This document shows positions 2,708 through 40,132 of a stretch of 40,132 nucleotides of DNA, piece by piece. This DNA is from Candidatus Scalindua sp. Its GTDB lineage: Bacteria > Planctomycetota > Brocadiia > Brocadiales > Scalinduaceae. Made by a program: the position numbers and the translations under genes. The stretch covers positions 1-40,132 of the forward strand of contig JAIQZU010000013.1 in assembly GCA_021776915.1 (NCBI GenBank). The letters run 5' to 3'. Each line of letters opens with the position of its first letter. Position 1 is the first letter of the stretch. The notes beneath the pieces are model-generated. The model was not told the DNA's origin. It did no database searches and worked only from the letters and a program-made list of their open reading frames with translations.

Positions 2708-5700
2708 CTACGCATGCCCGGTGAATTTGGCATCTTTAATATGATGTTTGATCTTCCACTCCTGAACAGAACAATAGAGTACAGGGACAATGAGCATGGT
2801 CATGATTTCGATCAACATGCCCCCGAAACTGGGAATGGCCATCGGCACCATAATATCAGAGCCGCGTCCGGTTGAGGTCAGGACGGGAATCAATGCAAGG
2901 ATTGTAGTTGCAGTCGTCATCAAGCAGGGACGCACCCTCCTTAATCCAGCCGCAATAGTAGCCTTTCTGGCATCTTCACGTGAGGTAATATCCCGTTTCC
3001 AGAAACTCTGATCCAGGTATGTTGTAATTACCACTCCGTCATCGGAGGCAATCCCAAACAGGGCAAGAAACCCCACCCAGACAGCAACGCTCATGTTAAT
3101 AGTGTGTACCTGGAATAGTTCTCTCATGTTCGTTCCAAACACTTCAAAGTTTAAGAACCATGGTTCCCCGTACATCCAGAGCATCAGGAATCCACCTGAC
3201 CAGGCAATCAATATGCCGCTGAAAACAAGTGAAGTGGTGATGGTAGATTTGAACTGAAGATATAAAATTATAAAGATAATGAACAGTGCCAATGGCAAAA
3301 CAATTGAAAGTGTTTTCTGTGAGCGTATCTGATTCTCGTAACTTCCCGCGAACGTGTAACTGACCCCGGGTGGGATGATAAACTCTCCGCTTTCAACCTT
3401 CTGTCTCAAATAACGTTGGCACTCTTCGACGACATCCACTTCGGGACGCCCCTCTTTCATATCGAAGAGCACATAACCCACAAGAAAGGTATCCTCACTC
3501 TTTATTACCTGGGGTCCCCGCACATAATTAATGTCCGCAACCTGTTCTATCGGGATCTGCGTGCCATCCGGAGCTGCGACAAGGATACGGCCGAGTGTCT
3601 CTATTTGATCCCGCAATTCCCGCAAGTATCGGACTCTAACCGGATACCGCTCACGTCCCTCAACGGTTGTCGTAATGCGGCGTCCACCGATAGCAATCTC
3701 GATCACATCCTGAACCTGACGTATTTTGAGTCCGTAACGCGCAATAGCCACTCTATCAAAATCAATCTCGATGTACGGCTTACCGACTATGCGGTCCGCA
3801 ATGACTGCCGGAGCTTCGACACTGGGCACTTCCTTCAAAAATCGTTCAACATCCAGAGAAACCTTCTCAATTGTCTCGAGGTCAGGACCCTTGACCTTGA
3901 CGCCCATCGGGGCCCGCATACCACTCTGAAGCATCACAATCCGTGCAGCAATAGGCTGAAGCTTCGGTGCAGAGGTAGTGCCGGGAATCTGCGCCGCATC
4001 GACTATCTCTTTCCATATATCGTCCGGTGACTTGATGTGTTCGCGCCATTGCCGATACGGTTTTCCCTTCGGATCTGCGATCAGTTTTCCATCATGATCG
4101 CGGACAAACTCCTGCCTATTCTCATCAAATCTGAATTTGATGCGATGGCCCTCTTTATCGGTAATGTACTCCGGCTTATAATTGATTACGGTTTCGATCA
4201 TTGAAAGTGGAGCCGGGTCCAACGGGCTTTCAATCCTGCCCAGCTTGCCCACTGCCGTATCCACTTCCGGAATAGAAGAGAGTTGCTTGTCCTGAAACTG
4301 CAGAACATCAAGAACCTCACTTATAGAGGCATGCGGCATAGTGGTCGGCATGTAGAGGTATGATCCTTCATCCAGCGGGGGCATGAATTCCTTACCGAAC
4401 CCTGGAAATACGTTAGATGCACTCTTCCATATTGTTGTACTACGAATTGTGCCCGGAACGAAACCGAACACACGATCAAATCCCATCCATGCACAGACTC
4501 CCAATAGCATGATAAACATTGGCGCTAACAAGAAAAGCTTCTTATGATTCAGGCACCATCTGAGGATAGGGGCGTACAGGAATTGTTGAAATATCTGAAA
4601 AAAGATTAACAAACCTCCTATCAGAGTCACAACGAATACAAGATTACGCAACATGCCTTTTTCCGGGCCAAGTGGAAGCCAGTGATTAGACAGGATAATC
4701 CCTACCAATAGGGCTGAGGCAATAATGACTACCCATTTCCCATAACTTCTCATGTGAGCCGGCAAGTAGTCTTCTGCCAGATGATAGGCCCCCAGGGCAA
4801 CAATGATAAGACCGGCCCACCAGGCAAACCAGATACCGATGACTACACCGACGGCAATCAGTCCAGACAGGAAGAATTGTTTCAGCCTTTTAGACCGAAT
4901 ACGAGCTGAGAAAAGGATGTGGGCTGCCGGGGGGATGATGGTTAACGCTACTATAACCGAAGAGAAGAGAGCAAAGGTCTTGGTAAAAGCCAGTGGTTTG
5001 AACAATTTTCCTTCGGCGCCGATCATCGCAAAAACAGGCAGGAAGCTGACGATTGTAGTAGAGACAGCAGTCAGTACAGCGCCAGAGACTTCCCTGGTCG
5101 CCCGGAATATTACTTCCAGCCGATCCTCATCAGGATCGGCCTCTTCCAGGTGTCTAAGTATATTTTCACACATGATGATACCCATATCGACCATGGTGCC
5201 GATGGCTATGGCTATACCGGACAGGGCTACGATATTGGCATCCACGCCAAAGGTCTTCATAGCAATGAAGCACATCAGCACGGCAATTGGAAGCAGAGCG
5301 CTGATCAAGATGGAGCTCCGAAGATGCATCACCAACACAATCACAACGATGATTGTCACGAGGATTTCCTCGGTAAGCGCTGTATTTAATGTGCCCAGCG
5401 TCTCATAGATAAGGCCTGTGCGGTCGTAGTATGGCACCACGGTTACGTGACTGGTATTTATCCAGGCAGGCCAATCCTCGCGTGGATTTGTATGCAGCCA
5501 CTTCAGCCAATCCTCATTGTTCAATTCTACGCTGTTGAAGGCGTCAAAACCTTTGGCAGACGCAAAGGCTTCAATCTCAGCACGCGTTGTCTTTTTATAG
5601 TCAACAACCGCCTTAGTCGGGAGGCCGGGTGAAATTTCATCAATCTTTTTCTTGACGTTCTTTATGGCCTGCAACGGGTTGAACCCGTAGCGAACTACAA

Positions 5701-6664
5701 CGCTGCCACCGCTTGCCTCTGCCCCTCCTTTGTCAAGGGCGCCTCGACGCAGAGCGGGTCCCAACGTAACCTTCGCGACATCCTTGACGTAAATGGGAAT
5801 ATTCTCGTTGACCGTAACTACTGACATTTCTATGTCACTGACCTTTTCGATGAAACCCAGACCGCGTATTATATACTCTACCTTGTTTACTTCAATAGTA
5901 CGGGCGCCAACATCAATGTTAGACATGCGGACCGCCATGAAGATGTCTTCCAGGGAGACCCGGGCAGCCCGCATAGCGTCCGGGTCTACGTCGATCTGAT
6001 ACTCCTGCACATAACCGCCAATAGAAGCCACCTCACTGATTCCCTCGGCAGCCAGCAGAAAATACCTGACATACCAGTCCTGGATTGTCCGAAGCTCATT
6101 CAAATCCCATCCGCCAATCGGATTCCCATCGGGATCACGCCCTTCGAGTGTATACCAGTAAATCTGGCCTAACGCGGTAGCATCAGGCCCAAGGGCCGGT
6201 TGAACCCCTTCAGGCAGGGTCCCCGCAGGAAGGCTGTTCAGCTTTTCAAGCACCCTTGTTCTCGACCAGTAGAATTCAATGTCTTCTTTGAAAATGATGT
6301 AGATAGAGGAAAACCCGAAGAATGAGTAACTACGGATGGTCTTAACTCCCGGAACACCAAGCAGAGAAACGGTCAACGGATAGGTAATCTGGTCTTCGAC
6401 GTCTTGCGGTGAACGCCCTATCCATTCAGTAAAGACAATCTGCTGATTTTCACCGATATCAGGGATGGCGTCAACCGGAACCGGATTTCGCGGCAGGCCG
6501 CCAATCTTCCAATCGAACGGCGCCACCAACACGCCCCATCCTATTACCGCAAGCACAATTAAAGCCACAATGAGTTTATTCTCAAGACAGAATCGAACTA
6601 TTTTGTCGAGTATCGTTATCTTTTCCCCGGAAGCAGGTTTCACTGGCGGACGGTGATCACTCAT
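2708..6664 (-). CDS. cusA: CusA/CzcA-family heavy-metal RND efflux pump (oversized)
   Basis: Inner-membrane proton-driven RND transporter of the heavy-metal efflux class, likely exporting Cu(I)/Ag(I) given the CusB-like partner. From the chosen start it has 1318 residues, against about 1040-1050 for E. coli CusA. Visible family features are an N-terminal TM helix, the porter segment with AIPDIGENQQ, the TM4 stretch IAIAIGTMVDMGIIMCEN with its intramembrane acid, and a second-half GIASDDGVVITTYLD motif. Extra length comes from inserts near residues 365-415, 600-715 (about four added hydrophobic segments) and 840-895. Start choice: ATG at 6664 has AAGGGGG about 8 bases upstream and overlaps the adaptor stop as ATGAGTGA, typical of translational coupling. 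TTG 6691 and ATG 6688 are alternatives. No outer-membrane channel gene lies nearby. Metal specificity is inferred. Confidence 0.93.
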   Translation of the reverse strand: MSDHRPPVKPASGEKITILDKIVRFCLENKLIVALIVLAVIGWGVLVAPFDWKIGGLPRNPVPVDAIPDIGENQQIVFTEWIGRSPQDVEDQITYPLTVSLLGVPGVKTIRSYSFFGFSSIYIIFKEDIEFYWSRTRVLEKLNSLPAGTLPEGVQPALGPDATALGQIYWYTLEGRDPDGNPIGGWDLNELRTIQDWYVRYFLLAAEGISEVASIGGYVQEYQIDVDPDAMRAARVSLEDIFMAVRMSNIDVGARTIEVNKVEYIIRGLGFIEKVSDIEMSVVTVNENIPIYVKDVAKVTLGPALRRGALDKGGAEASGGSVVVRYGFNPLQAIKNVKKKIDEISPGLPTKAVVDYKKTTRAEIEAFASAKGFDAFNSVELNNEDWLKWLHTNPREDWPAWINTSHVTVVPYYDRTGLIYETLGTLNTALTEEILVTIIVVIVLVMHLRSSILISALLPIAVLMCFIAMKTFGVDANIVALSGIAIAIGTMVDMGIIMCENILRHLEEADPDEDRLEVIFRATREVSGAVLTAVSTTIVSFLPVFAMIGAEGKLFKPLAFTKTFALFSSVIVALTIIPPAAHILFSARIRSKRLKQFFLSGLIAVGVVIGIWFAWWAGLIIVALGAYHLAEDYLPAHMRSYGKWVVIIASALLVGIILSNHWLPLGPEKGMLRNLVFVVTLIGGLLIFFQIFQQFLYAPILRWCLNHKKLFLLAPMFIMLLGVCAWMGFDRVFGFVPGTIRSTTIWKSASNVFPGFGKEFMPPLDEGSYLYMPTTMPHASISEVLDVLQFQDKQLSSIPEVDTAVGKLGRIESPLDPAPLSMIETVINYKPEYITDKEGHRIKFRFDENRQEFVRDHDGKLIADPKGKPYRQWREHIKSPDDIWKEIVDAAQIPGTTSAPKLQPIAARIVMLQSGMRAPMGVKVKGPDLETIEKVSLDVERFLKEVPSVEAPAVIADRIVGKPYIEIDFDRVAIARYGLKIRQVQDVIEIAIGGRRITTTVEGRERYPVRVRYLRELRDQIETLGRILVAAPDGTQIPIEQVADINYVRGPQVIKSEDTFLVGYVLFDMKEGRPEVDVVEECQRYLRQKVESGEFIIPPGVSYTFAGSYENQIRSQKTLSIVLPLALFIIFIILYLQFKSTITTSLVFSGILIAWSGGFLMLWMYGEPWFLNFEVFGTNMRELFQVHTINMSVAVWVGFLALFGIASDDGVVITTYLDQSFWKRDITSREDARKATIAAGLRRVRPCLMTTATTILALIPVLTSTGRGSDIMVPMAIPSFGGMLIEIMTMLIVPVLYCSVQEWKIKHHIKDAKFTGHA

Positions 6665-9104
6665 GATGATGTTCCCCCTTATGCTCATCAACTTTTTCGC
6701 CTGTCTGCGTGCCAGCCTGTGTTTCGGGCGCAGACAGGCTACGCACAGGCAGGTCAGAGATTAATTCTACCCTGTCAGCACACTTCAGCATAGCCTGGCC
6801 AAAATATGGATTGCTGACCTGTTTTTGCTCCTGCAACCACATTGCTCCTTTGCCGCCAAAAACCATTGGACAATGCATCTGGTAAACGGTCCCGAATCTA
6901 TCCGGACCAAAGGTGTTAATCAACAACAAAAGTTCATCGGAAAGTAAGGAAAAGTTTTCACGAATCGATTCCAGATCCTCCGACTGACCCATGCGTTGCA
7001 ATATCTGAACGAGATTGGAATATTCTTTCTTCCATACCTGATAAACATCTTCAACAAGGGGTTCAGAGTTTACCGAGGATAAAGATGTTTGAAAATGTGC
7101 AATAGATTGCTGTGCGGATGAAAAATTATCACTGGCAAGGGTCTGTTGAAGTGATAGATATGCCTCCCATAGTTTGACGAGTTGTGACTGAAACGCAGCG
7201 GGAACTTCCAGATGCTGAGATAGTTGCGGCCTTTGAGCATCATGCGATGTCCCGAACTGTTCACGCACTCGACTCATATTCTTTGTCAACACCTTAAACA
7301 CACGGTTAGCATCTCTAAACGTTTTTACATCACGGCCTTCCACGGCATCGTTGTTCAATAGCATAGAAAGCTCATCCCACAGCATGCGAAGGTGTCCGGA
7401 TAGAATACTCCCGTCAACTTTATTGAGGATTTCACCAAAAACTTGAAACTCCTCGTGAAAAAGGTTAATGTCATTCAATTTGACTACCTTTGCTATTGCC
7501 TCGTAGGCCGATTCCAGCTTCTGCAACTGACTGAGGAATTCTGCCGGGACACCACCAGGAGCCATCGTTTTCTCCTGTCCGGTTTCGGCGGGTTTTGCAC
7601 CGGCGCCATGCTGATGCCCTCCGCCTCCGCCTCCCTCCGGCGTCATCATGCTTGGTTTAGCCTGGATCTGGACGGCGCTGTCGATCTTGAAATTTCCATT
7701 GGTAACTACCATTTCGCCTTCTTTCAACCCGCTTCGAACCAGGTAATAATCGCCGGCCCGCGGCCCAAGTACTATCTCTCGCCCTTCGAAAGTGGGCTGG
7801 TCAGTACCGGGAAGCTCTACATATACAATAGCCCTGGTACCGGTCACCAATGCGGCTGTGACAGGAATTACTAAAGGCTTAGACTTATCATCAGCATCAA
7901 CTGCAACATAACCAAGTGATTCAGCGCGCACCAGTGGCATGCCGCAAATATCACACTCACCTGGGTTATCTTTGACAATCTCCGGGTGCATTGGAGATAT
8001 CCATTTTCCGACCAAATGCGGATCTACAACTCTTCCACCGGTTGAAATCTGTGTTCGAACAACTCCATTCACAAACATTTCAGGTTTAAGTTTGCCTGAA
8101 AGGTTGGGCACATTAACCCTCACTTTCACTGTACGGGTTTTTTCATTCAGTACCGGTTCGATAAAGGCTATCCTCCCAACAAACTCCTCGCCTGGATAAG
8201 CCACTGTTGTAAAAATGATTTCCTGGCCATATCTTAACCACACGAGATCTGACTCATAAGCATCCAGCATAACCCATACTTGATTCAAATCGGCAATCTT
8301 GTAAATACGGTCACCTACATTAACGTAATCTCCTTCCTGGCGGTTTTTCTGAATCACAATACCGCTCATGGGGGAGTATACCGTTAAATGGTCAAACGGC
8401 TTTTCACTCTCCTCAATTTCCTTTATCTGCTCCTTACTCATTCCCCACAACCGCAATCTTTCCCGAACAGGCTCAACCAAATCAGCAACATCAGGAAAGA
8501 TTGAATTATCTCCTACTCGTCCTCGTACCCGTTTCAAAACCTGGATCAACTCATCCTGTGTGGAGTAGAGATCAGGACTGTAAATGTAGACCATATGGTC
8601 GCCTTTCTTTACCGCCACACCGGTATAGTCCACGTAGAGACGATCTAAACGGCCTGATATCCAGGCAGTAATATATCCCAGCCTGGTCTCATCAAAATCA
8701 ACCTTCCCCACCATCCTTACCTCGGCAGTTGCGTAGCGCCGTTCAACAGGCGTAGTCTGTATATTCATCATTGCGCGAGCGGCATCACTGATCACGATCT
8801 GCCGCGAACCTTCAGTTTTCTTTTCCTTTCTTGTGGAAGTAACCGGAATAAGGTCCATCCCGCATATTGGACATTTCCCTGGATTTTGCTTCTGAATATT
8901 TGGATGCATGCTGCAAGTCCAGAAAAGTATCTTGCTGTCAGGTGTATCAATTGATACCGTCGTCTCACCGGGACCTCCACCACTCTTTATGAGCAGGCCG
9001 ATAACTAATCCTGTTATAAAGATAGCAGCAAAAACTGAGACAACTCCCCATCTTGTCTTTAAGATATTACCTTTGTCCTTTGATGAATTTGATAGGTTTC
9101 TCAT
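6657..9104 (-). CDS. cusB: CusB-like periplasmic adaptor with two heavy-metal-binding motifs and DUF3347-type tail
   Basis: An 815-residue membrane-fusion protein for the adjacent RND pump, twice the usual adaptor length. A TM anchor lies at about 18-40. A YHS-like heavy-metal-binding motif follows (C64-S-M-H-P ... C78-P-I-C81-G-M). The adaptor core with barrel-sandwich and beta-barrel segments runs from about 100 to 350. A second metal motif (SPMHP ... C384-D-I-C387-G-M) interrupts the C-terminal adaptor part. A Gly/His linker at 491-500 leads to two tandem helical repeats (about 522-570 and 635-685), then a DUF3347 signature (C745-P-M, WL, NPYFG 765-769, C775) and a His-rich end. The start has AAGGA 8 bases upstream. 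The stop overlaps the pump start by 8 bases. The multiple Met/Cys/His sites suggest periplasmic Cu/Ag capture and hand-off; this is inferred from family knowledge. Confidence 0.93.
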   Translation of the reverse strand: MRNLSNSSKDKGNILKTRWGVVSVFAAIFITGLVIGLLIKSGGGPGETTVSIDTPDSKILFWTCSMHPNIQKQNPGKCPICGMDLIPVTSTRKEKKTEGSRQIVISDAARAMMNIQTTPVERRYATAEVRMVGKVDFDETRLGYITAWISGRLDRLYVDYTGVAVKKGDHMVYIYSPDLYSTQDELIQVLKRVRGRVGDNSIFPDVADLVEPVRERLRLWGMSKEQIKEIEESEKPFDHLTVYSPMSGIVIQKNRQEGDYVNVGDRIYKIADLNQVWVMLDAYESDLVWLRYGQEIIFTTVAYPGEEFVGRIAFIEPVLNEKTRTVKVRVNVPNLSGKLKPEMFVNGVVRTQISTGGRVVDPHLVGKWISPMHPEIVKDNPGECDICGMPLVRAESLGYVAVDADDKSKPLVIPVTAALVTGTRAIVYVELPGTDQPTFEGREIVLGPRAGDYYLVRSGLKEGEMVVTNGNFKIDSAVQIQAKPSMMTPEGGGGGGHQHGAGAKPAETGQEKTMAPGGVPAEFLSQLQKLESAYEAIAKVVKLNDINLFHEEFQVFGEILNKVDGSILSGHLRMLWDELSMLLNNDAVEGRDVKTFRDANRVFKVLTKNMSRVREQFGTSHDAQRPQLSQHLEVPAAFQSQLVKLWEAYLSLQQTLASDNFSSAQQSIAHFQTSLSSVNSEPLVEDVYQVWKKEYSNLVQILQRMGQSEDLESIRENFSLLSDELLLLINTFGPDRFGTVYQMHCPMVFGGKGAMWLQEQKQVSNPYFGQAMLKCADRVELISDLPVRSLSAPETQAGTQTGEKVDEHKGEHHHE
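6699..6739. repeat. Perfect 11-bp inverted repeat inside the adaptor coding region
   Basis: GCCTGTCTGCG at 6699-6709 is matched exactly by CGCAGACAGGC at 6729-6739 across a 19-base loop. Partial extra copies of the arm (GCCTGT 6715-6720, ACAGGC 6745-6750) lie beside it. It encodes the low-complexity part of the adaptor tail just after the DUF3347 region. This looks like a small palindromic repeat tolerated within a gene, not a conserved protein segment. Confidence 0.6.
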
Positions 9105-9208: not shown

Positions 9209-9699
9209 AGTGCAGATCATAGTGTTTTTGTTGCTAGAAAAAATTTCTTAAATAGTAATGTTAAATATGTATAAACAATTTACATGCCAACTAAATTGTC
9301 AGTAAAAATTAGTTATTATGAATAAAGGGAAATTTTTGGCGCCCAAATTTAGAGTTTTATGAATACTGTGGCAATATAACATACTGAAGACAAATATCTT
9401 ATTATAATAACGGTTTGTGCTCAGGTTGTGAAGGATTTAAATAGTTTTTTTAGAAATGCCACATAACCGTTTATCAAATATTTTAAATTCAGGTTTTGTT
9501 AAGCTTTAGCAATACATCTTTTGTTTGTTATGCCACAACGAATAGTAGCATATCAAACTCTTAAATTCTATAATTGAATGTGGCAAATTAAAATGCTAAA
9601 ATGATGACATATAATCACAGAAGATGAGGAATTATGATTCAGGAATTCTTTAATCTTTTCAATTCCTTAATTCTTAAATTTACTAAGGACGAAGGACTA

Positions 9700-10764
9700 A
9701 TGAGTAAAGATAAAACCCGCAGAGAGTTTATCAGAGAAACATGCACAAATACATTACTGGGCGGTATGTTTCTGTCTCAAATACCATTACCCCCTGACCT
9801 CTTACCAGATGACCTCGAAACAGATTCAGGATTAACAAACACATTAAACCCGCAATCCCTCGTCGTAGACGTTAAAAGCAGGAAAGATATTATACAGGGA
9901 GTTACCGCAAATATCTCACTGGTCAAGCAGATGGTTAACTCCGGCATAACTTCACTTACAGGCAAAAGCAATCCAAAAGATGCATGGAAATCACTATTTC
10001 ACGAGGATGAAAGGATAGGCATAAAGATAAACGGTCTTGGCGCCCACATCCTTGCCGGTAATTATCAAATCTGCTGGGCTATTGTTGACGCACTCAAAGA
10101 TATCGGGGTAAATGAAAATAATATCATCGTATGGGATCAATATCAGCATCATCTGCTATCATCAGGCTTTAAGCTGAATATGTCCTTCAAAGGTGTAAAG
10201 GTTTACGCAACAGATAGAGGTGGGGGACAAAAAGCCCTGGATGCAGGCAGTTCACATAAAGAATACGACAGTGGATACGGAGCGGTACGAATAAGTAAAA
10301 TATGGGCTGAAGATGTTGATTCAGTCATAAATCTGGGCTTGTTAAAAGACCACGGCATTGCAGGCGTAACCATTGCGCTTAAAAACATATCTCACGGCGT
10401 GGTCAGCCATCCGGAAATCTTTCATGATGATTCATGTGACCCTTTCATTGCCGCCATAAATTCAATACCGATAATCAAAGACAAGATAAAGCTCCACATC
10501 TGTAATGGGATACTTGGCCTTTACGATGGCGGGCCAATGCCTAAGAAAAGGCACGTGTGGAGCAATAACGGAATTATTCTGAGTAAAGACCCTGTAGCGC
10601 TTGATACTATAGGCTTAAACATTATTGAGGAAAAGAGAAAAGAGAGAGAGCTTCCTTCTCTATTTAACCGTCCGAACCTGCCAAAGCATATCGAAACAGC
10701 AGGTAGATACGGGCTTGGCGCAAGCGATTTAAATCTGATAAATCACAAAACAGTTCTGATTTAA
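9700..10764 (+). CDS. Tat-exported DUF362 family protein
   Basis: About 354 residues of a DUF362-type protein. The region around the motif NLGLLKDHGIAGVTIALKN is diagnostic, and an INGLGAHILAGN stretch lies earlier. From the ATG at 9700 the protein opens with MSKDKTRREFIRE and a short hydrophobic stretch, a plausible twin-arginine signal. That start has AAGGA six bases upstream. An in-frame ATG at 9634, which also has GAGGA upstream, would bury the twin arginine 22 residues inside, so I prefer 9700. DUF362 proteins are of uncertain function; some carry ferredoxin domains, but none is seen here. The gene is divergent from the metal-efflux operon and precedes the cyclase, so it may belong to either neighbourhood. 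Confidence 0.82.
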   Translation: MSKDKTRREFIRETCTNTLLGGMFLSQIPLPPDLLPDDLETDSGLTNTLNPQSLVVDVKSRKDIIQGVTANISLVKQMVNSGITSLTGKSNPKDAWKSLFHEDERIGIKINGLGAHILAGNYQICWAIVDALKDIGVNENNIIVWDQYQHHLLSSGFKLNMSFKGVKVYATDRGGGQKALDAGSSHKEYDSGYGAVRISKIWAEDVDSVINLGLLKDHGIAGVTIALKNISHGVVSHPEIFHDDSCDPFIAAINSIPIIKDKIKLHICNGILGLYDGGPMPKKRHVWSNNGIILSKDPVALDTIGLNIIEEKRKERELPSLFNRPNLPKHIETAGRYGLGASDLNLINHKTVLI

Positions 10765-10949: not shown

Positions 10950-13364
10950 ATGAAACTGTTTCCCTCGCTTTCTAAATTTTCAAAATTAGTAAAGAGAATT
11001 ACTCCTATCCTGATCTCAATCCTGATCTTCATCATAGTAATTACAATCTATAATCTTGAAGACCGTGATGTATTTAAGGCGTTACGTATATTCAAAGCCA
11101 TTGAGCAGAAATCCATGGACGTCAGATTTCAGATAAGGGGGAAACGCGACCCCGGTGACGAGATTGTAATAGTTGCGATAGATGAAAACAGCATAAAGAA
11201 GCTCGGGCGTTACCCATGGCCAAGACGTCATATTGCAGAATTTGTAGATAAGATAACTGACGCGAAGGCAAGGCTTCTCGCCCTGGATGTTATGTACACT
11301 GAGGCACAAAACGTTGATATATTAGCAGCCATTGACACCCTGACCAGTGAGTATAACAACTCCCCGCTATGGCATTACTTACCGGAAGGAGCCAACAAAG
11401 AAGAATTTCTGACATCATTAAATAAAGAGAAAAACCGGTTTGATGAAGACCGCAAACTTAAAGATGCATTTAAAAGGGCTGTGGTTGAAAATGGCATTGA
11501 TATTATTTCCTCGATTAGATTTATTGATACAGCACAAAGAGAGCTTGCCGGCTTTACCGGGAAAGAGGTCTCTGAACTCGGCAAGGAATTGCTGAAGGAA
11601 TCCGCTTATTTTCCGGTCATGGTGGGCACAGGAACCAAAGCTAAAAAAAGAAGTTCCGACGGTGAAAAATTAACTGTCCTGACATCAAAGAATAGAAATG
11701 AAATAATGGAAAACCTCCTGGCACGATATCGGCCAAAGAGGGCCGTTGGAGTGTTAAACATGATTGACCAGTTTGCGGAATGGGTAACTTATCAAGGGTT
11801 TGTAGATACAAATGTTGACTATTCCGGCATAGTCAGGAGAGAGTATATGGCTATTCAATTTGAAAATGAGTTTTATCCCCCACTCGGCGTCCAGGTAGCC
11901 AGAGTATATAAAGGCCTCGAATACGGCGAGTTAAAACTATTACTGACAGAAAAACTTGTATTTAAAGAAACAGAAATCCCCATTGATAGCTGGAACAGGA
12001 TGGTTATCAATTACTGCGGCCCTGAAGCCACATTTAAATATTATTCTTTCTGTGACGTCATAGAAGGCAAAATACCACCTGAAGCATTCAGTGACAAGAT
12101 CGTCTTTCTCGGTGCTACAGCGTCCGGCCTGGGTGATTTCATAGCAACTCCATTCTCATCACAAACACCAGGTGTGGAGAAACATGCCACCGTCACAGAA
12201 AACATTTTACACGAAAAGTTCCTGGTAAGGGGAAATAGAGAAGTGTTTCATAACGTAATAACAATTCTGTGCATATGCCTTGCAATGGGTATGTTTCTTC
12301 CTTTGCTGCCCTCAATATGGGGCGGGGTGGCAAGCGCATCATTATGGCTTGGATACAACTATTATGTTTATACAGAATTCGTAAATGACGGAACATGGTT
12401 AAACGTGACATATCCCAGTATGGCCGTAATTGCATGCTTCACGGCAATCACCTTGTACCGCTTTATGTCTGAGGAGAAGATGAGAAAAGGGGTAAGATCT
12501 GCATTTGAAAACTTTATGGACCCGAAGGTCGTCCATGAGATATTGAAAGAACCTGACAACATAAAGCTTGGCGGTGAAGAAAAGGAAATAACAGTCTTTT
12601 TCACAGATATTGAAAAATTCAGCACTATATCGGAAAAGTTGTCACCAACCGAATTAATTGAATTACTTAATGAGTATCTAAGCGAGATGACAGATATAAT
12701 ACTCAGCCATGGCGGATATCTGGATAAATATATAGGTGATGCGATTGTCGCAGTGTTTGGCGCTCCATTACCACAGCCGGATCACGCCGTGAAGGCATGT
12801 ATGGCAACTATTGACAATCAGAAAAGATTATGTGAACTAAACAGGAAATTTAAAGAATCAGGAAAACTGGAAATAAAGGCCAGGATAGGTCTGAACTCAG
12901 GCCTTGCACTTGTGGGTAATGTGGGTTCAACCAACAGGCTTTCGTACACTGTAATCGGGGATGAGGTTAATCTTGGCGCCAGACTGGAGGCTGCCAATAA
13001 GTATTATGGCACCTACACCATGATAAGTGAGAGTACTTATGAACTGGCTAAGGACCGGATAGAGACCAGAGAGCTGGATATGATCCGGGTAGTTGGCAAG
13101 AAAAAACCGGTTAAGGTATACGAACTGATTGATAGAAAAGGAGAAATACCGGAAGCAAAGCGAGATGTATTAAATATTTATGAAGATGGCCTGAGAGAAT
13201 ATAGAAAGAGAGAATGGCAAAAGGCAATAATATTATTTCAAAGAGCCCTGGGCAAAGACCCGCATGACGGGCCTTCACTGACATACATAGAAAGATGCAA
13301 AATCTATGCACAGGATTCACCTCCGGAAAATTGGGATGGAGTCTACACATTGACAGCAAAATAA
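10950..13364 (+). CDS. CHASE2-domain class III adenylate cyclase
   Basis: An 804-residue membrane cyclase. TM helix about 17-34; extracytoplasmic CHASE2 domain about 45-425 (opening MDVRFQIRGKRDPGDEIVIV, DENSIKKLGRYPWPR); three TM segments about 432-505; class III cyclase domain about 540-725; short TPR-like tail 745-785. Catalytic residues are present: metal-binding D553 (FFTDIEKF) and D597 (YIGDAIVAVFG), and transition-state N674 and R678 (NLGAR). The purine-selecting pair appears to be K593/T667, a Lys/Thr combination known in bacterial adenylate cyclases, so cAMP is the likely product. AAGGA lies 9 bases before the ATG. The next gene begins 22 bases later and carries a cyclic-nucleotide-binding-like domain, so the two are probably co-transcribed as producer and receiver. 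Confidence 0.93.
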   Translation: MKLFPSLSKFSKLVKRITPILISILIFIIVITIYNLEDRDVFKALRIFKAIEQKSMDVRFQIRGKRDPGDEIVIVAIDENSIKKLGRYPWPRRHIAEFVDKITDAKARLLALDVMYTEAQNVDILAAIDTLTSEYNNSPLWHYLPEGANKEEFLTSLNKEKNRFDEDRKLKDAFKRAVVENGIDIISSIRFIDTAQRELAGFTGKEVSELGKELLKESAYFPVMVGTGTKAKKRSSDGEKLTVLTSKNRNEIMENLLARYRPKRAVGVLNMIDQFAEWVTYQGFVDTNVDYSGIVRREYMAIQFENEFYPPLGVQVARVYKGLEYGELKLLLTEKLVFKETEIPIDSWNRMVINYCGPEATFKYYSFCDVIEGKIPPEAFSDKIVFLGATASGLGDFIATPFSSQTPGVEKHATVTENILHEKFLVRGNREVFHNVITILCICLAMGMFLPLLPSIWGGVASASLWLGYNYYVYTEFVNDGTWLNVTYPSMAVIACFTAITLYRFMSEEKMRKGVRSAFENFMDPKVVHEILKEPDNIKLGGEEKEITVFFTDIEKFSTISEKLSPTELIELLNEYLSEMTDIILSHGGYLDKYIGDAIVAVFGAPLPQPDHAVKACMATIDNQKRLCELNRKFKESGKLEIKARIGLNSGLALVGNVGSTNRLSYTVIGDEVNLGARLEAANKYYGTYTMISESTYELAKDRIETRELDMIRVVGKKKPVKVYELIDRKGEIPEAKRDVLNIYEDGLREYRKREWQKAIILFQRALGKDPHDGPSLTYIERCKIYAQDSPPENWDGVYTLTAK

Positions 13365-13386
13365 TGCACAAAGCAATAAATAAGCT

Positions 13387-15966
13387 ATGGCAGAAAAACT
13401 GATAACACCAGAAAAAGACAGAGAAGAAATACTGAAGTTCTTAAGTGAAGCTTCAATTTTCAAAGATCTTCCTGATGAATCATTAGAAAAGATCCCGGAA
13501 ATAGTACAAATAGATTACTTTGCCAAAGATCATATCATTATCAAGAAAGGATCACCCGGGGTTCGTCTATATTTGATCAAATCAGGAAGCGCCAGAGTTG
13601 TCTCTGAATCAGAAGAGGATGAATTTATTATTGCAACTATACCTGCCGGAAAATGCTTTGGTGAAATGTCTCTGCTTACAGGCGAACCTTGCTGTGCCAC
13701 CGTAAAAACAAATGAAAATTCCCTTATTTACTTTATCACAAAGAGCGATTTTGACAGCATCATTTCAGAAAATCCCCAGATATACAAACATTTCAATAAA
13801 TTGCTTGCTGAACGTATTAACAAGCAGAATATTAAAAATATTGATCTTCAAAAATATGAAATTGCCTTAAGCAGCTACCTTCAAAAGACGAAAGAATATC
13901 AGTACAGTAGTGTGGTATGGAAATGCAAGAAAATGAGGGAAATCGTAGAGGAGGCTGAAAGGCTTTCAAAGACAGATGACCCTGTTACCATCATATCCGA
14001 AGACGGCGCAGGAAAAGAAACCATGTCCAGAAAGATACATTCGGAAAGCTCAAGGGCTAAATTTCCTGTCATTGAAGTTATACTTGCCAAAGAAAGAAGG
14101 AATGAAAAATTACCTGTCCATAATGAGAGAAGAAAACGTGATCAGATTGAATGTGAATTGTTCGGCAGCGAAAGAATAGTATTTATTGAGGAAGAGGCAG
14201 GAAGGGTTGGCCGTTTAGAATTGGTAAATAACGGAACGCTGGTTATTAAAAATATAGAAAACATGTCCTTAAACACACAAGAAGCTTTCTTGAAATTCCT
14301 GGAAAGCGGCAAATTCCAAAGATTAGGAGGAAGCGAATACGTACATGTTAATGCAAGGATTATTGTTACTACTACAGATATCAGCTTAATGCAGGAAAAA
14401 CTAAACCAGAGATTATTCCATATATTAAGCGCACATAAATTAGAGATCCCGCCATTAAGAGACCGCAAAAAAGACATCCCTGCCCTTATGGTGCATTTTG
14501 TCGATAAAACAAGCAAGGCAAGACACATACATGCAAAAAAGTTTTCAAAGGCCGCTACAAACAAATTATTAAAATATGATTATCCTGGTAACGTAAAGGA
14601 ACTGGAAAATGTGATAGAACGCGCAATTACATTATCAAAAGGAGATGCTGACATTGAAGAAGAAGAAATCTTCCTTGGTGATACAACAAAGATAGAGGAT
14701 GAAAGGCGAATTAATCTCCTGAATATACCCCTTATTAGAATATTATGTGAAAGCCCCAGGATAATTTTAGCAGCTAAAATAGCTACCTTAATCGTTTTTA
14801 TTTCTGTGCTTTGTTTGTTGGCAACACAAGCTGACATTTCAATAGGCGGGAGAAAAATTGCCCTGATTCTATGCTGGCAGGTAAGTTTGCCGCTTTTATT
14901 TATAGTATTTCTTTTTGCTGCCCGTTTTGGGTGCGGTCTTTGTCCTATATACACTATCTCTAATTTTTTTAATAAACATATTAATCTAAAAATATCTATC
15001 CCATCTTTTGTAAAGAATAATGATGTCTGGTTCACGGGTGTAGGTTTTATATCCATTTTATTCCTGGAAAAGTACACCCATATGGCCTATTCAATCAACA
15101 AAACGGCCTATTTAATATTCAGCATCCTGCTCGCAGCTATAATCATAGATTTTGTTTTTGAAAAATCTGCCTGGTGCCGTCACCTTTGCCCACTGGGCGG
15201 GTTAAGTGGGCTTTTTTCCATGTCTTCCATGATAGAAATACGTTCAAACAGAAATACATGTACCACGATTTGTACAACACATGATTGCTATAAGGGATCT
15301 GAAAGAGCAGCCCCCTGCCCGACGTATTTGCATCTTCAGTTTTTGTCGGATAATAGAAACTGCAAGGTCTGTCTGAATTGTATTAAAAACTGTACTCATA
15401 ACGCAACACGTTTAAACCTCCGAATCCCTGGTGCAGAAATAAGCTCGTTGAGGCAACCAACTCTGGCTGGAGCTTTGTTCTCAATTATACTTTCAGGTCT
15501 ATTATTGGCTGAAATCCTTTCTCAATCAAGTGTCGGTCAGGCAGGTTTTCCTCTCGTATTCTCTGCTTCCATATGTTTTGCACTGACCCTGAACCTTGCT
15601 GGTAATTTTTTCACCACGCTAATATCGAAAGAAACGATAATTGAACATATTAAACATTTTGGCTACGCGCTTCTTCCACTTACTCTATTCGGCTTTACGG
15701 CCCATAAGGCTGTTGATGTCTTTGGAAACGTGGAAGGATCTTTAATGATATTTAAAATCTATAAATTAAATTTCAATTTTACAACTGCCTTCCAATTGCT
15801 CATTATACTCACAGGACTTTTCATAACTGAATATCTCATTTACAAAATTATTTTGAACAAAATCACAAAAGACAAGCATCCCCTGGTATTTGCCATTCAG
15901 GGAATAGTACCATTGATAATCGCAATCCTTTATATTTTGTTATTTTACAACGCTGATAACTTTTAA
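13387..15966 (+). CDS. CNB-like / degenerate AAA+ / NapH-NosR-like Fe-S membrane fusion protein
   Basis: An 859-residue three-part protein. Part one (about 18-145) is a Crp-type cyclic-nucleotide-binding fold with FGEMSLLTGEP (91-101). The usual phosphate-binding Arg is replaced by Cys in C102-C103. Part two (about 175-435) is clearly an NtrC-type AAA+ domain but degenerate: the Walker-A-like SEDGAGKE (204-211) lacks the first Gly, GAFTGA is replaced around 263-269, and Walker B reads TLVIKNI instead of ending in DE. PLRDRKKDIP and YPGNVKELENVIERA remain. No Fis HTH follows. Part three has about nine TM segments, C516-x2-C519-P, C597-x3-C601-P, Cys 625/629/634/644, and a canonical 4Fe-4S set C659-x2-C662-x2-C665-x3-C669. 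It resembles polyferredoxin-type quinol or electron-transfer proteins. Ligand-gated control of electron flow is inference. Confidence 0.85.
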   Translation: MAEKLITPEKDREEILKFLSEASIFKDLPDESLEKIPEIVQIDYFAKDHIIIKKGSPGVRLYLIKSGSARVVSESEEDEFIIATIPAGKCFGEMSLLTGEPCCATVKTNENSLIYFITKSDFDSIISENPQIYKHFNKLLAERINKQNIKNIDLQKYEIALSSYLQKTKEYQYSSVVWKCKKMREIVEEAERLSKTDDPVTIISEDGAGKETMSRKIHSESSRAKFPVIEVILAKERRNEKLPVHNERRKRDQIECELFGSERIVFIEEEAGRVGRLELVNNGTLVIKNIENMSLNTQEAFLKFLESGKFQRLGGSEYVHVNARIIVTTTDISLMQEKLNQRLFHILSAHKLEIPPLRDRKKDIPALMVHFVDKTSKARHIHAKKFSKAATNKLLKYDYPGNVKELENVIERAITLSKGDADIEEEEIFLGDTTKIEDERRINLLNIPLIRILCESPRIILAAKIATLIVFISVLCLLATQADISIGGRKIALILCWQVSLPLLFIVFLFAARFGCGLCPIYTISNFFNKHINLKISIPSFVKNNDVWFTGVGFISILFLEKYTHMAYSINKTAYLIFSILLAAIIIDFVFEKSAWCRHLCPLGGLSGLFSMSSMIEIRSNRNTCTTICTTHDCYKGSERAAPCPTYLHLQFLSDNRNCKVCLNCIKNCTHNATRLNLRIPGAEISSLRQPTLAGALFSIILSGLLLAEILSQSSVGQAGFPLVFSASICFALTLNLAGNFFTTLISKETIIEHIKHFGYALLPLTLFGFTAHKAVDVFGNVEGSLMIFKIYKLNFNFTTAFQLLIILTGLFITEYLIYKIILNKITKDKHPLVFAIQGIVPLIIAILYILLFYNADNF

Positions 15967-16172: not shown

Positions 16173-18332
16173 ATGATTAAACCTTCAGACTACATACAGA
16201 AAACGCTGAATCCTTTTGACCGCTTAGGGGATATACTGGTTAATCTGGGCTACATTGACAGAAAGATTTTAGAAAAATTCGTTTACCAGAAACAGGATGA
16301 AATCCAGAAAAGTAACAAGCTTCGCTCTTCCATCGAAGAACTGGTATCTGAAGATCGTGGACAATTCCTCGCCAGCTACCATTCACATTACCTGGGTGAG
16401 GTTTTGGTAGAAGCTAATCTGATTACCCATACGCAATTGCAAGAAGCGCTTCATCTACAAGAAGATATAAAATTTCCAAATATCCCCAAGAATAAAATAG
16501 TCCTTCTCTCTGAGATTTTGCATAAAATCTCCCGTTCTAGAAACCTGTACAGCGTTCTAAATCTCGTTATGAATTATTGTAATAAGGTTGTTGATGCTGA
16601 AGCAAGTACACTTTTTCTTCATAATAAAGAAAAAAACGTCTTAGTCTTTAATGTAACCACCGGAGATAAGAAAAACATGGTAATCGAAAAAAAGATGCCA
16701 GTAAACGAAGGGGTAGCCGGGTGGGTCTTTCAAAATGACAAAAGTGCTATTGTAAATGATGCAGCAAGTGATAAGCGTGTATGTAAGAGTTTTGATAAAC
16801 AGACTGGTTTCAAGGCAAGAAATGTCCTTTGTGTGCCGGTTAGAGTAAATTACAAACCAGAAGGTGCATTAGAAGTGCTTAATAAGATTGGCAACAAATC
16901 CTTTAGTAAAAAAGATGAATGCCTTTTGAACATACTATCCAACCAGATTGGCGTTCACATGGAAAACCGAATACTTGTAGAAGAGCTGGATTATAGGGCA
17001 AAACAAGTAGGAAAAGAAAAAAATAAATACCAGAAACTTTACTCAGAAAAGGAAAATTTACTAAATCAATTGTCACAAGCTTACGAACAACTTAAATCAC
17101 ATCAAAAAGAACTCCTTGAAGCAAGCCGTTTCAAAGGTATTGGGGTGCTAGCTGCTGGTGCTGCCCACGATTTCAATAATACCCTTACTGCAATCTTAGG
17201 TCAGGTAGAAACCTTTACGCATAAAGAGTTAAAGAAGCGTAATCAACTTTCAGAAAATGGAGTTGAAGTGCTCCGTAAAACATTTAAAGGAATTGTTGAA
17301 CTCTGTATACAGGCAAAACACTTGACATCCAGTCTTTTAAGGTTGGGCAAGCGGGAAGTCATAAAAAAGGAATCTGTCAATATTGAATCCTTTTTATTGG
17401 AAGTAATCAAACCTTTAGAACGACAATTTTCAACCAGAGGTATTCATCTTAAAAAGGTATTTCTTTCTGATATTCCAACCATTATATTGGACAAAGGCAA
17501 TATAAATGACTTGATCACGAACATTGTAGTAAATGCCCTGAACGCTATCGAAGAAAGACAGCTTCGCCTCAGAGAACTTCACCAGAACCCAGAAATGAAC
17601 TTTACTATTGAAGTGAACCAAAAGGACAATTTTCTGATTTTAGAGTTTATCGATACAGGAATTGGTATTTCACCAGTTAATATTGAGAAAGTTTTTGACC
17701 CCTTCTTCTCAACCAAGAAACAAACTATGGAAAGAGGTACTGGCCTGGGGCTTACTATGGTAAGGCGTATTGTAGGCTTACATAATGGCCACATAAACAT
17801 TCATTCAGTCACACAGGAAATGATTGACAGTGATCCTGAAACTTACTCAAAAAAGCAGTGTGGTACTACTATTACCATCCAGATACCAATGGTAAAAGCT
17901 ACACAAGGACAATTAGAAACACAAGAAGAAACAAAATCTTTCACTCAAAACAAGGAAACTCTTGTTTATATCGCAGAAGACGAAGAATATATTAAGGACT
18001 TTCTCTGTACTGTGATACCTGAGTTAGGTTTTTATCAGGTTGAAGGATTTGACAACGGCCAATTACTTCTAGACGCTATTAAGGTTAAAATACCTGACTT
18101 AATCATAACAGACATACAGATGCCCAAAATGGATGGACTTACATTATGCCGTGAAATTAATCGGATTTGCCATGCAAACAAGCCAACAATAATTATTTCA
18201 ACAGGTAAATCAGAAAAGGATAATCTAGAGCCATTTTTCGCATTGGGGATACAAGAAGTACTGGAAAAACCATATCAAATAAAAGAGTTAATGAACAGAA
18301 TTAACCAAGCCCTATTCAGAAATGCGCAATGA
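16173..18332 (+). CDS. Cytosolic hybrid histidine kinase with MshEN-like repeats, GAF and receiver domains
   Basis: A 719-residue protein with no TM segment. N-terminal region: two copies of a motif like the type II secretion/MshE N-domain (RLGDILVNLGYIDRKILEKF, about 17-40, and LGEVLVEANLITHTQLQEAL, about 74-93). That family includes c-di-GMP-binding members, so a nucleotide input is possible but unproven. A GAF domain spans about 110-268, then a coiled coil about 270-318. HisKA has H332 in AAHDFNN, and HATPase has N450/N454, DTGIGI 494-499 and GTGLGLT 522-528. A C-terminal receiver (about 596-715) has D647 in LIITDIQMPKMDG and K699. Without a DNA-binding output it presumably passes phosphate to another protein or acts by phosphotransfer. 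GTGTGGA precedes the ATG. Confidence 0.9.
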   Translation: MIKPSDYIQKTLNPFDRLGDILVNLGYIDRKILEKFVYQKQDEIQKSNKLRSSIEELVSEDRGQFLASYHSHYLGEVLVEANLITHTQLQEALHLQEDIKFPNIPKNKIVLLSEILHKISRSRNLYSVLNLVMNYCNKVVDAEASTLFLHNKEKNVLVFNVTTGDKKNMVIEKKMPVNEGVAGWVFQNDKSAIVNDAASDKRVCKSFDKQTGFKARNVLCVPVRVNYKPEGALEVLNKIGNKSFSKKDECLLNILSNQIGVHMENRILVEELDYRAKQVGKEKNKYQKLYSEKENLLNQLSQAYEQLKSHQKELLEASRFKGIGVLAAGAAHDFNNTLTAILGQVETFTHKELKKRNQLSENGVEVLRKTFKGIVELCIQAKHLTSSLLRLGKREVIKKESVNIESFLLEVIKPLERQFSTRGIHLKKVFLSDIPTIILDKGNINDLITNIVVNALNAIEERQLRLRELHQNPEMNFTIEVNQKDNFLILEFIDTGIGISPVNIEKVFDPFFSTKKQTMERGTGLGLTMVRRIVGLHNGHINIHSVTQEMIDSDPETYSKKQCGTTITIQIPMVKATQGQLETQEETKSFTQNKETLVYIAEDEEYIKDFLCTVIPELGFYQVEGFDNGQLLLDAIKVKIPDLIITDIQMPKMDGLTLCREINRICHANKPTIIISTGKSEKDNLEPFFALGIQEVLEKPYQIKELMNRINQALFRNAQ

Positions 18333-39051: not shown

Positions 39052-40132
39052 TCAAGAATAATCCATTGAATCAGACCATTTAGCCTTGACAGTTTCAACT
39101 ATTTCCCGAGTAATCGCACTGCTGCCCTTCGCCCTGGCATAGCTCTCAACCTCGCTGACAACCATAGGCCTCACAAATGCAGGCGCACGCAAGACTAAAG
39201 ACCTGGCATCATCATCCCAGGAAAGCTCTCCTGCCTTCACTGTTCGATTCACAGGCTGTAGCTGATCGATCTTTATATTCTCTTCTTTCTCAAAAAAAGG
39301 ATTTACCTCAGCACTCTTCCCGCTTTTTGTTATCAGTACATTGCATTCAGCATTGCGCAATATGTTTTCTGTTGAACTACCCATATCCAAACCGTTAACT
39401 GCATGTATACCGGTTCGGCCCAAAACCAACAGAGATGGCTTCACCTTATCAACATACTTCAATATCTCGTTATATGGCTTGCCTTCAAGAAGTGTAGTCT
39501 CTGCATCAAGACCCAGATTCCTTACCTTATTTAAGGCAATCTCAAGATGTCCGTCATAAATCTTTTCCAAACCTTTGTCTATGACATCTTCATGCAGCTT
39601 CTCCTGCTCTTCCGACTTAAACACGTCGCCCATTTCACCGGAGAGGATTTTAGCGATACCATCAAAAGCAACCCTGTGATAATGAGGATCAAATACCGAC
39701 AACAACTCTATCTTCATATTATACTTTGCCGCTAATCCGCTTGCCATCTCCACAGCCCTTAAAGATTGCTCACTTCCGTCAACGGTAACGATTACTTTAC
39801 CTTCAAGTGACCTGTCATTCTTAACAACTAATACATCGGTATTAATCCTTCTGACAACTCTCTCGCAGACACTGCCAATCAGATTGCCATTTACTTCGCC
39901 AAGACCCAGGACGCCTATAATTACCAGATCGTAATCATTGGCTTTTATATCTTTTACTAACTCAAGATAATTCTTACCCTCAATGATGTTCCTTTTAAAA
40001 GGGACATTTGACTCACGGCTTCTCTTTTCCGTACTGTCCAGATAAGAATCTGAGATCATCCGAAGCCCTTTGCCTATGAGCGTGTTGTGAAACTCTCTCT
40101 GCTTCTTAAGCTCGCTTTCTTCTCTGTACTTT
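39052..40132 (-). CDS. Double universal-stress-protein with C-terminal PCP_red domain (5' end outside the window)
   Basis: At least 359 residues. The reading frame stays open from the ATG at 40059 to the window edge, and those 24 extra codons fit the first domain, so the gene is truncated by the edge. The first USP domain is partial and ends with LVIIGVLGLGEVNGNLIGSVCERVVRRINTDVLVVK. A second, complete USP domain follows, with VTVDGSEQSLRAVEMA and LVLGRTGIHAVNGLDMGSSTENILRNAECNVLI holding the G-2x-G-9x-G-S/T-like ATP loop. The last 50 residues (LSWDDDARSLVLRAPAFVRP ...) match PCP_red, the small domain also found in protochlorophyllide reductase subunits. This points to a stress or redox-linked nucleotide-binding protein. 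Tandem USPs are common; the PCP_red fusion is less so. Confidence 0.9.
   Translation of the reverse strand, partial: KYREESELKKQREFHNTLIGKGLRMISDSYLDSTEKRSRESNVPFKRNIIEGKNYLELVKDIKANDYDLVIIGVLGLGEVNGNLIGSVCERVVRRINTDVLVVKNDRSLEGKVIVTVDGSEQSLRAVEMASGLAAKYNMKIELLSVFDPHYHRVAFDGIAKILSGEMGDVFKSEEQEKLHEDVIDKGLEKIYDGHLEIALNKVRNLGLDAETTLLEGKPYNEILKYVDKVKPSLLVLGRTGIHAVNGLDMGSSTENILRNAECNVLITKSGKSAEVNPFFEKEENIKIDQLQPVNRTVKAGELSWDDDARSLVLRAPAFVRPMVVSEVESYARAKGSSAITREIVETVKAKWSDSMDYS

Follow-up and report, generated by a model that had tools for sequence, protein, structure and literature searches.

A CHASE2 adenylate cyclase and its operon-like partner in one Scalindua clade: a NapH-like Fe-S membrane protein with N-terminal CNB and non-catalytic AAA+ domains

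Does a second messenger meet membrane electron transfer in anammox bacteria, and if so, which controls the other? The question is raised by two adjacent genes in a stretch of 40,132 nucleotides (hereafter the window) from a Scalindua-type anammox planctomycete, one encoding a CHASE2 cyclase and the other a protein in which a cyclic nucleotide-binding (CNB) domain and an AAA+ domain are fused to an Fe-S membrane module. A sequence-only reading had proposed that cAMP from the cyclase switches electron flow through the fused protein. Among named organisms, its nearest relatives are Candidatus Scalindua and Brocadiaceae metagenome-assembled genomes. The host genome (3.79 Mb, 89 contigs) carries five class III cyclases and 13 CNB proteins. 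An open reading frame check placed both genes at the coordinates given in Table 1, with a gap of 22 bases (13365-13386) between them; a promoter and terminator scan gave hits at chance level only. Every domain of both genes is under purifying selection, with dN/dS of about 0.03-0.27, values that are approximate because synonymous divergence is high in some pairs. Neither the pair nor the architecture is thus a product of chance, and the architecture is real and conserved. We describe the partner as a redox module of the NapH kind in the membrane, topped by regulatory CNB and non-catalytic AAA+ domains, which a CHASE2 cyclase accompanies in a single clade of Scalindua. Literature searches on anammox with cyclase or cyclic nucleotide-binding, on Scalindua with cyclic AMP, and on the fused architecture returned nothing relevant; they likewise returned no experiments on any member of the CNB/AAA+/Fe-S family.

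Table 1. Coordinates of the cyclase-partner unit, its domains, and the upstream neighbour in the window
Feature	Coordinates	Strand	Evidence or remark
DUF362 protein	9634..10764	+	Pfam; neighbour, probably not part of the unit
Two-gene unit: CHASE2 cyclase, then 859-aa fusion gene	10950..13364, then 13387..15966	+	
CHASE2 class III adenylate cyclase, 804 aa	10950..13364	+	Pfam, catalytic residues, dN/dS; C-terminal tail after the catalytic domain
859-aa CNB / non-catalytic NtrC-type AAA+ / NapH-like 4Fe-4S membrane protein, clade A (partner)	13387..15966	+	Pfam, AlphaFold2, structure matches, 83-member motif tally
CNB domain, residues 19-150	13441..13836	+	Pfam, alignment, motif tally
Phosphate cassette of the CNB, CFGEMSLLTGEPCCATVK, residues 90-107			Cys102-Cys103 at the CRP Arg82-Ser83 positions
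Long helix joining CNB to AAA+, residues 130-168	13774..13890	+	DSSP on the model
Non-catalytic AAA+, residues 176-445	13912..14721	+	Motif reading, 83-member tally, fold match to FlrC/NtrC1
NapH-like module, residues 457-690, four predicted TM helices	14755..15456	+	Invariant Cys, NapH model match, AlphaFold2
Module cysteines: Cys516/519 (CX2CP), Cys597/601 (CX3CP), Cys625/629/634/644, Cys659/662/665/669			
C-terminal membrane bundle, residues 691-859, about five more helices	15457..15963	+	Model, dN/dS; least conserved part

The upstream gene encodes a class III CHASE2 cyclase in which the residues of an adenylate cyclase are intact, and it is predicted to make cAMP. Both domains lie above their curated cut-offs: CHASE2 (E 4.8e-56) scores 190.6 bits vs. 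26.3, and the class III catalytic domain (Guanylate_cyc, E 1.5e-24) 87 bits vs. 21.9. D553, D597, K593, T667, N674, and R678 are invariant across all seven cyclase orthologues; we take them to be the metal-binding aspartates (D553/D597), the Lys/Thr pair for the adenine of ATP (K593/T667), and the Asn/Arg transition-state pair (N674/R678). The catalytic domain has dN/dS of 0.04-0.07. The description of this gene as a catalytically intact CHASE2 adenylate cyclase therefore holds. In Sinorhizobium, the CHASE2 cyclases CyaD1, CyaD2, and CyaK work with the regulator Clr (PMC13001267). These enzymes, like that of the window, combine CHASE2 with a class III cyclase, and their output is a CNB protein; however, the Sinorhizobium receptor is a canonical CRP-family transcription factor, whereas the operon partner in Scalindua is a membrane Fe-S protein.

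Four Pfam families are recognized in the partner: cNMP_binding (44-129, E 4.5e-19), Sigma54_activat (179-351, E 3.5e-27), AAA_lid_14 (358-420), and Fer4_5 (574-611, E 9.1e-8). The AlphaFold2 model of the full-length protein has a mean pLDDT of 86, and the membrane part reaches 90.8. The helices of the module are predicted at residues 457-480, 491-511, 546-563, and 570-590. All 12 module cysteines listed in Table 1 are invariant in a 62-member alignment, as are W596 and R598. Models of NapH weakly match every one of the 59 family membrane parts that were scanned; the window protein itself scores 40.5 bits (E 2.2e-10) against NCBIfam TIGR02163 (NapH), well under the cut-off of 213.05. The earlier assignment of a polytopic 4Fe-4S module of the NapH kind is upheld by these cysteines and matches, the clusters being predicted ones. 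Given a cytoplasmic CNB and AAA+ part and the predicted helices, all cysteines of the module would lie on the cytoplasmic side of the membrane. In comparisons with the window, the Fe-S part has a dN/dS of 0.09-0.15; in the C-terminal helices the ratio is 0.20-0.27. Searches of solved structures with the isolated membrane part yielded no Foldseek match at E 0.001 or better and no VIA-align match over Z 7.4, an absence that does not show a new fold.

NapH, NosR, and RdhC carry two CX3CP motifs, and the membrane segments of NapH and NosR have been placed at the quinol pool (PMC5928378). The partner shares with NapH/MauN, and with the wider kin NosR and RdhC/PceC, a four-helix membrane module, two Cys-Cys-Pro motifs, and cytoplasmic ferredoxin-like 4Fe-4S cysteines. 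Its second motif is likewise CX3CP, but the first is CX2CP. Unlike NapH, it has no NapG partner and possesses extra C-terminal helices. NosR and RdhC have an extracytoplasmic N-terminal FMN domain, in place of which the partner carries CNB and AAA+; the Pfam scan detected no FMN-binding family in it. The genes next to the pair include none for NapG, a periplasmic reductase, or any other evident electron acceptor. The host genome also encodes a stand-alone 475-aa membrane protein (L011:4167-5594, contig C87) with a similar cysteine pattern and a CX2CP first motif, lacking a regulatory N-terminus.

Is the fusion tied to the cyclase wherever it occurs? An alignment of 11 members was searched against one genome per species and recovered 399 stretches encoding a relative. 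The best 80 of these include fusions in Desulfobacterota, Nitrospirota, Armatimonadota, Elusimicrobia, Bacillota, Acidobacteria, and others. According to custom domain profiles, the order in most of these 80 is CNB, AAA+, Fe-S, with the CNB lost, replaced, or truncated in a few. The motif tally used below covers 83 non-redundant members from many phyla that have both the AAA+ and the Fe-S parts. The cultivable Desulfosediminicola flagellatus has two copies (L080 and L096). Strong matches were found in 16 of 62 genomes of the order and in 10 of 392 drawn from the phylum. The libraries searched hold no name for this family. By length, domains, and sequence, the Scalindua-group proteins fall into three clades: A (854-867 aa), B (883-898 aa), and C (1056-1065 aa), the last with a GAF domain between CNB and AAA+. 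Clades A and C sit on long branches, and their tree position is not used as evidence. The host carries both; its clade C paralogue of 1056 aa (L009:5955-9125, contig C63), with GAF between the CNB and the dead AAA+, is kept in Scalindua beside FHA-trypsin and other genes and has no cyclase. No functional neighbourhood conserved across phyla was found; when 89 neighbours were sorted by Pfam family, none of the families turned up in more than two of them. One group, Desulfobulbaceae and kin, has the fusion downstream of housekeeping genes that read as hisD-rsmG-leuB-prs.

In clade A, the cyclase lies directly upstream of the partner and on the same strand at all seven loci; the two genes are 5-297 bases apart or overlap slightly. 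At one of the seven (G052), close to the end of a contig, the partner gene is truncated. Beyond this clade, 50 fusion loci have flanks of at least 2.5 kb on each side; a class III cyclase adjoins the fusion at none of them, and at three there is one on the opposite strand no more than about five genes away. As a control, the cyclase profile recovered the four other class III genes of the host genome (E 1e-60 to 5e-7). The pairing is therefore operon-like and conserved in one Scalindua clade and absent from the 50 loci outside it. For the fusion as such, checking cyclase neighbours genome by genome thus speaks against the sequence-only reading, and the cyclase is ruled out as the defining partner. 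The fusion itself is not unique to Scalindua; many bacterial groups carry such fusions without a cyclase.

In a close relative, G047, the unit is partly lost. The DNA of this relative is about 88-89% identical over the partner gene and 83-90% in matching stretches. In this genome (L042, 8643-10432), the DUF362 gene runs straight into the partner start, the entire cyclase being deleted. The partner is reduced to remnants, with several internal deletions and much of the N-terminal half missing, and the hybrid histidine-kinase gene that follows the pair in the window is also gone. This joint decay of cyclase and partner suggests that the two are coupled, as seen in a single draft genome. The coupling is not absolute: G057, which is 94% complete, retains a cyclase of 78% identity that no clade A gene adjoins, and it encodes a clade B protein elsewhere. 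More distant cyclase copies in G060 and G051 have no adjoining fusion. Across its domains, the partner has dN/dS of 0.09-0.27. On the other side of the cyclase, two clade A genomes have FecR-like genes: that of G048 is above the Pfam cut-off and is followed by an Alginate_exp gene, and that of G052 is just below the cut-off. Such neighbours fit an envelope signal passing into CHASE2.

The proposal that cAMP from the cyclase binds the partner CNB and so switches electron flow draws on adjacency and on the intact cyclase residues. The closest structural matches of the CNB model are CRP-family proteins with cAMP bound (Z 19.9 over 143 residues), and Glu93 of the cassette is retained. The domain evolves with dN/dS of 0.14-0.21 relative to the window. 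Its fold is common to CRP/Clr-type cAMP receptors (Z about 20), and the linker helix to AAA+ is placed in the model like the CRP dimerisation helix, so that it may serve dimerisation. The partner differs from these receptors in having no DNA-binding domain and a Cys for the phosphate-binding Arg: the cassette reads PCCATV instead of the canonical PRxAT/S. At the CRP Arg82 position, there is Cys in 6/6 clade A members, Tyr in 8/8 of clade C (Tyr-Leu where clade A has Cys102-Cys103), and Arg in 4/4 of the cyclase-free clade B. Outside the three clades, 27 of the 62 members having a residue there keep Arg, and so do at least eight of the 13 CNB proteins of the host genome. CNB-fold domains without the phosphate-binding Arg exist and bind other ligands or none. 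Direct gating of the partner by cAMP is thus possible but not favoured. The earlier term Crp-type sensor stands as to fold and Pfam match but not as to the phosphate-binding Arg, and the mechanism built on it, though a live option with an intact cyclase next door, is not the best supported in its details; we regard it as unlikely.

The signal may instead run the other way, with the Fe-S protein sensing the quinone or cytoplasmic redox state and setting the cyclase, and cAMP then acting via other, canonical CNB proteins. The loss of Arg in the partner and the presence of canonical CNBs elsewhere in the genome agree with this, as do the membrane location of both proteins and their co-conservation. 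The vicinal Cys102-Cys103 pair, which among the members tallied is confined to clade A, is a clade-specific oddity that could be a thiol switch. However, contact between cyclase and partner is hypothetical, and the cyclase has a CHASE2 sensor of its own. This direction, too, we regard as unlikely.

What, then, does the AAA+ domain do? The earlier label NtrC-like is correct for the Sigma54_activat match and for the fold, but the catalytic parts and the HTH are missing. In common with NtrC-family activators (NtrC1, FlrC, FleQ, VpsR), the partner has the AAA+ core and lid fold (Z up to 28); its model superimposes on FlrC and NtrC1 with Z of about 28 and 2 Å rmsd over 243 residues. It differs from them in being membrane-anchored and in its motifs. 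In the window protein, Walker A reads SEDGAGKE, Walker B is GTLVIKN (KN, not Asp-Glu), and there is no GAFTGA. GAFTGA and the Walker B Asp-Glu are missing from every one of the 83 members, whereas Walker A retains its Lys in 61 and has Arg in 17. The Pfam scan finds no HTH in the window partner, and the same scan detects HTH_8 in the intact NtrC-type protein of the window. A conventional sigma-54 activator is therefore rejected. With dN/dS of 0.13-0.15 relative to the window, the domain is under purifying selection and thus still needed, dead as it is. That it assembles with intact sigma-54 activators and modulates them as a transcriptional redox sensor, the cyclase being an operon passenger, appears improbable: the fold, lid, and Walker A Lys (61/83) are kept and intact NtrC-type proteins are numerous in the genome, but the domain is membrane-tethered, the ATPase and sigma-54 loops are lost family-wide, and the cyclase pair is conserved across the clade.

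We come back to the pair as a unit that couples a cyclase to a membrane redox protein. The CHASE2 cyclase would sense an extracytoplasmic signal and produce cAMP. On the cytoplasmic face, the NapH-like module would bind two 4Fe-4S clusters and hold two Cys-Pro motifs, and the partner probably exchanges electrons with quinones. The CNB and the dead AAA+ would not activate sigma-54; they may form a conformational scaffold through which the Fe-S module is coupled to the CNB and to its ligand or redox state. Cyclase and partner would act on one pathway, either by cAMP acting on the partner CNB or by the redox protein tuning the cyclase. This coupling, with signalling in either direction, is in our judgement evenly balanced between right and wrong. 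It builds on the adjacency at all clade A loci, the decay in G047, the loss of GAFTGA and of the Walker B Asp-Glu throughout the family, the invariant cysteines, dN/dS, the NapH matches, the placement of NapH and NosR segments (PMC5928378), and the clade B context described below. Counted against it are the G057 cyclase without a partner, the missing Arg, the 0/50 elsewhere, and the lack of an electron acceptor beside the pair. The more specific version, in which the cyclase and a quinone-linked Fe-S protein control each other through a CNB and dead AAA+ relay, with the vicinal Cys pair as a redox or new-ligand switch, is tentative, and we would lean against it.

The clade B genes of G057 and G059 are divergent from an operon for a Rieske protein, cytochrome b, an FAD/Fer4 oxidoreductase, a multihaem cytochrome, and a c554-type cytochrome. 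As read from the sequences, this operon encodes one of the anammox Rieske/cytochrome b complexes. Such a neighbour speaks for a connection between the family and quinol chemistry, in the sister clade and not in clade A. Loci L045 and L046 (focal genes at 8372 and 8432) show clade B members divergently beside the Rieske/cytochrome b operon. The DUF362 protein, in contrast, was considered as an electron partner and dropped as not specific. It directly adjoins the pair only in the window and is one gene further off in G056; orthologues occur in relatives without the pair (G050, G055, G059) or distant from the cyclase (G057). The link to it that the sequence-only reading had suggested is therefore unlikely.

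If such mutual control of cyclase and partner is real, a second-messenger circuit would be joined directly to membrane electron transfer, and the wider family would form a class, so far without a name, of redox proteins in the membrane that are gated by ligands. Ligand gating of membrane electron transfer, if shown, would provide a direct non-transcriptional path from second messengers to respiration. The many-phyla family combines a strictly conserved Fe-S module with a CRP-like sensor and a family-wide dead AAA+. Only in the Scalindua pair do the neighbouring genes hint at the messenger that may be involved, and the context of clade B directs attention to a Rieske/cytochrome b complex of anammox that oxidises quinol.

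Other genes of the window deserve mention in their own right. Directly downstream of the pair (16173-18332) lies a hybrid sensor with GAF, histidine kinase, and receiver domains; in relatives, no such gene was seen next to the pair. An intact NtrC-type response regulator and a histidine kinase (76-2626) are next to a heavy-metal RND pump with its adaptor (2708-9104), whose lengths of 1327 and 815 aa are unusual. At 39052-40059, a universal stress protein is fused to a PCP_red domain.
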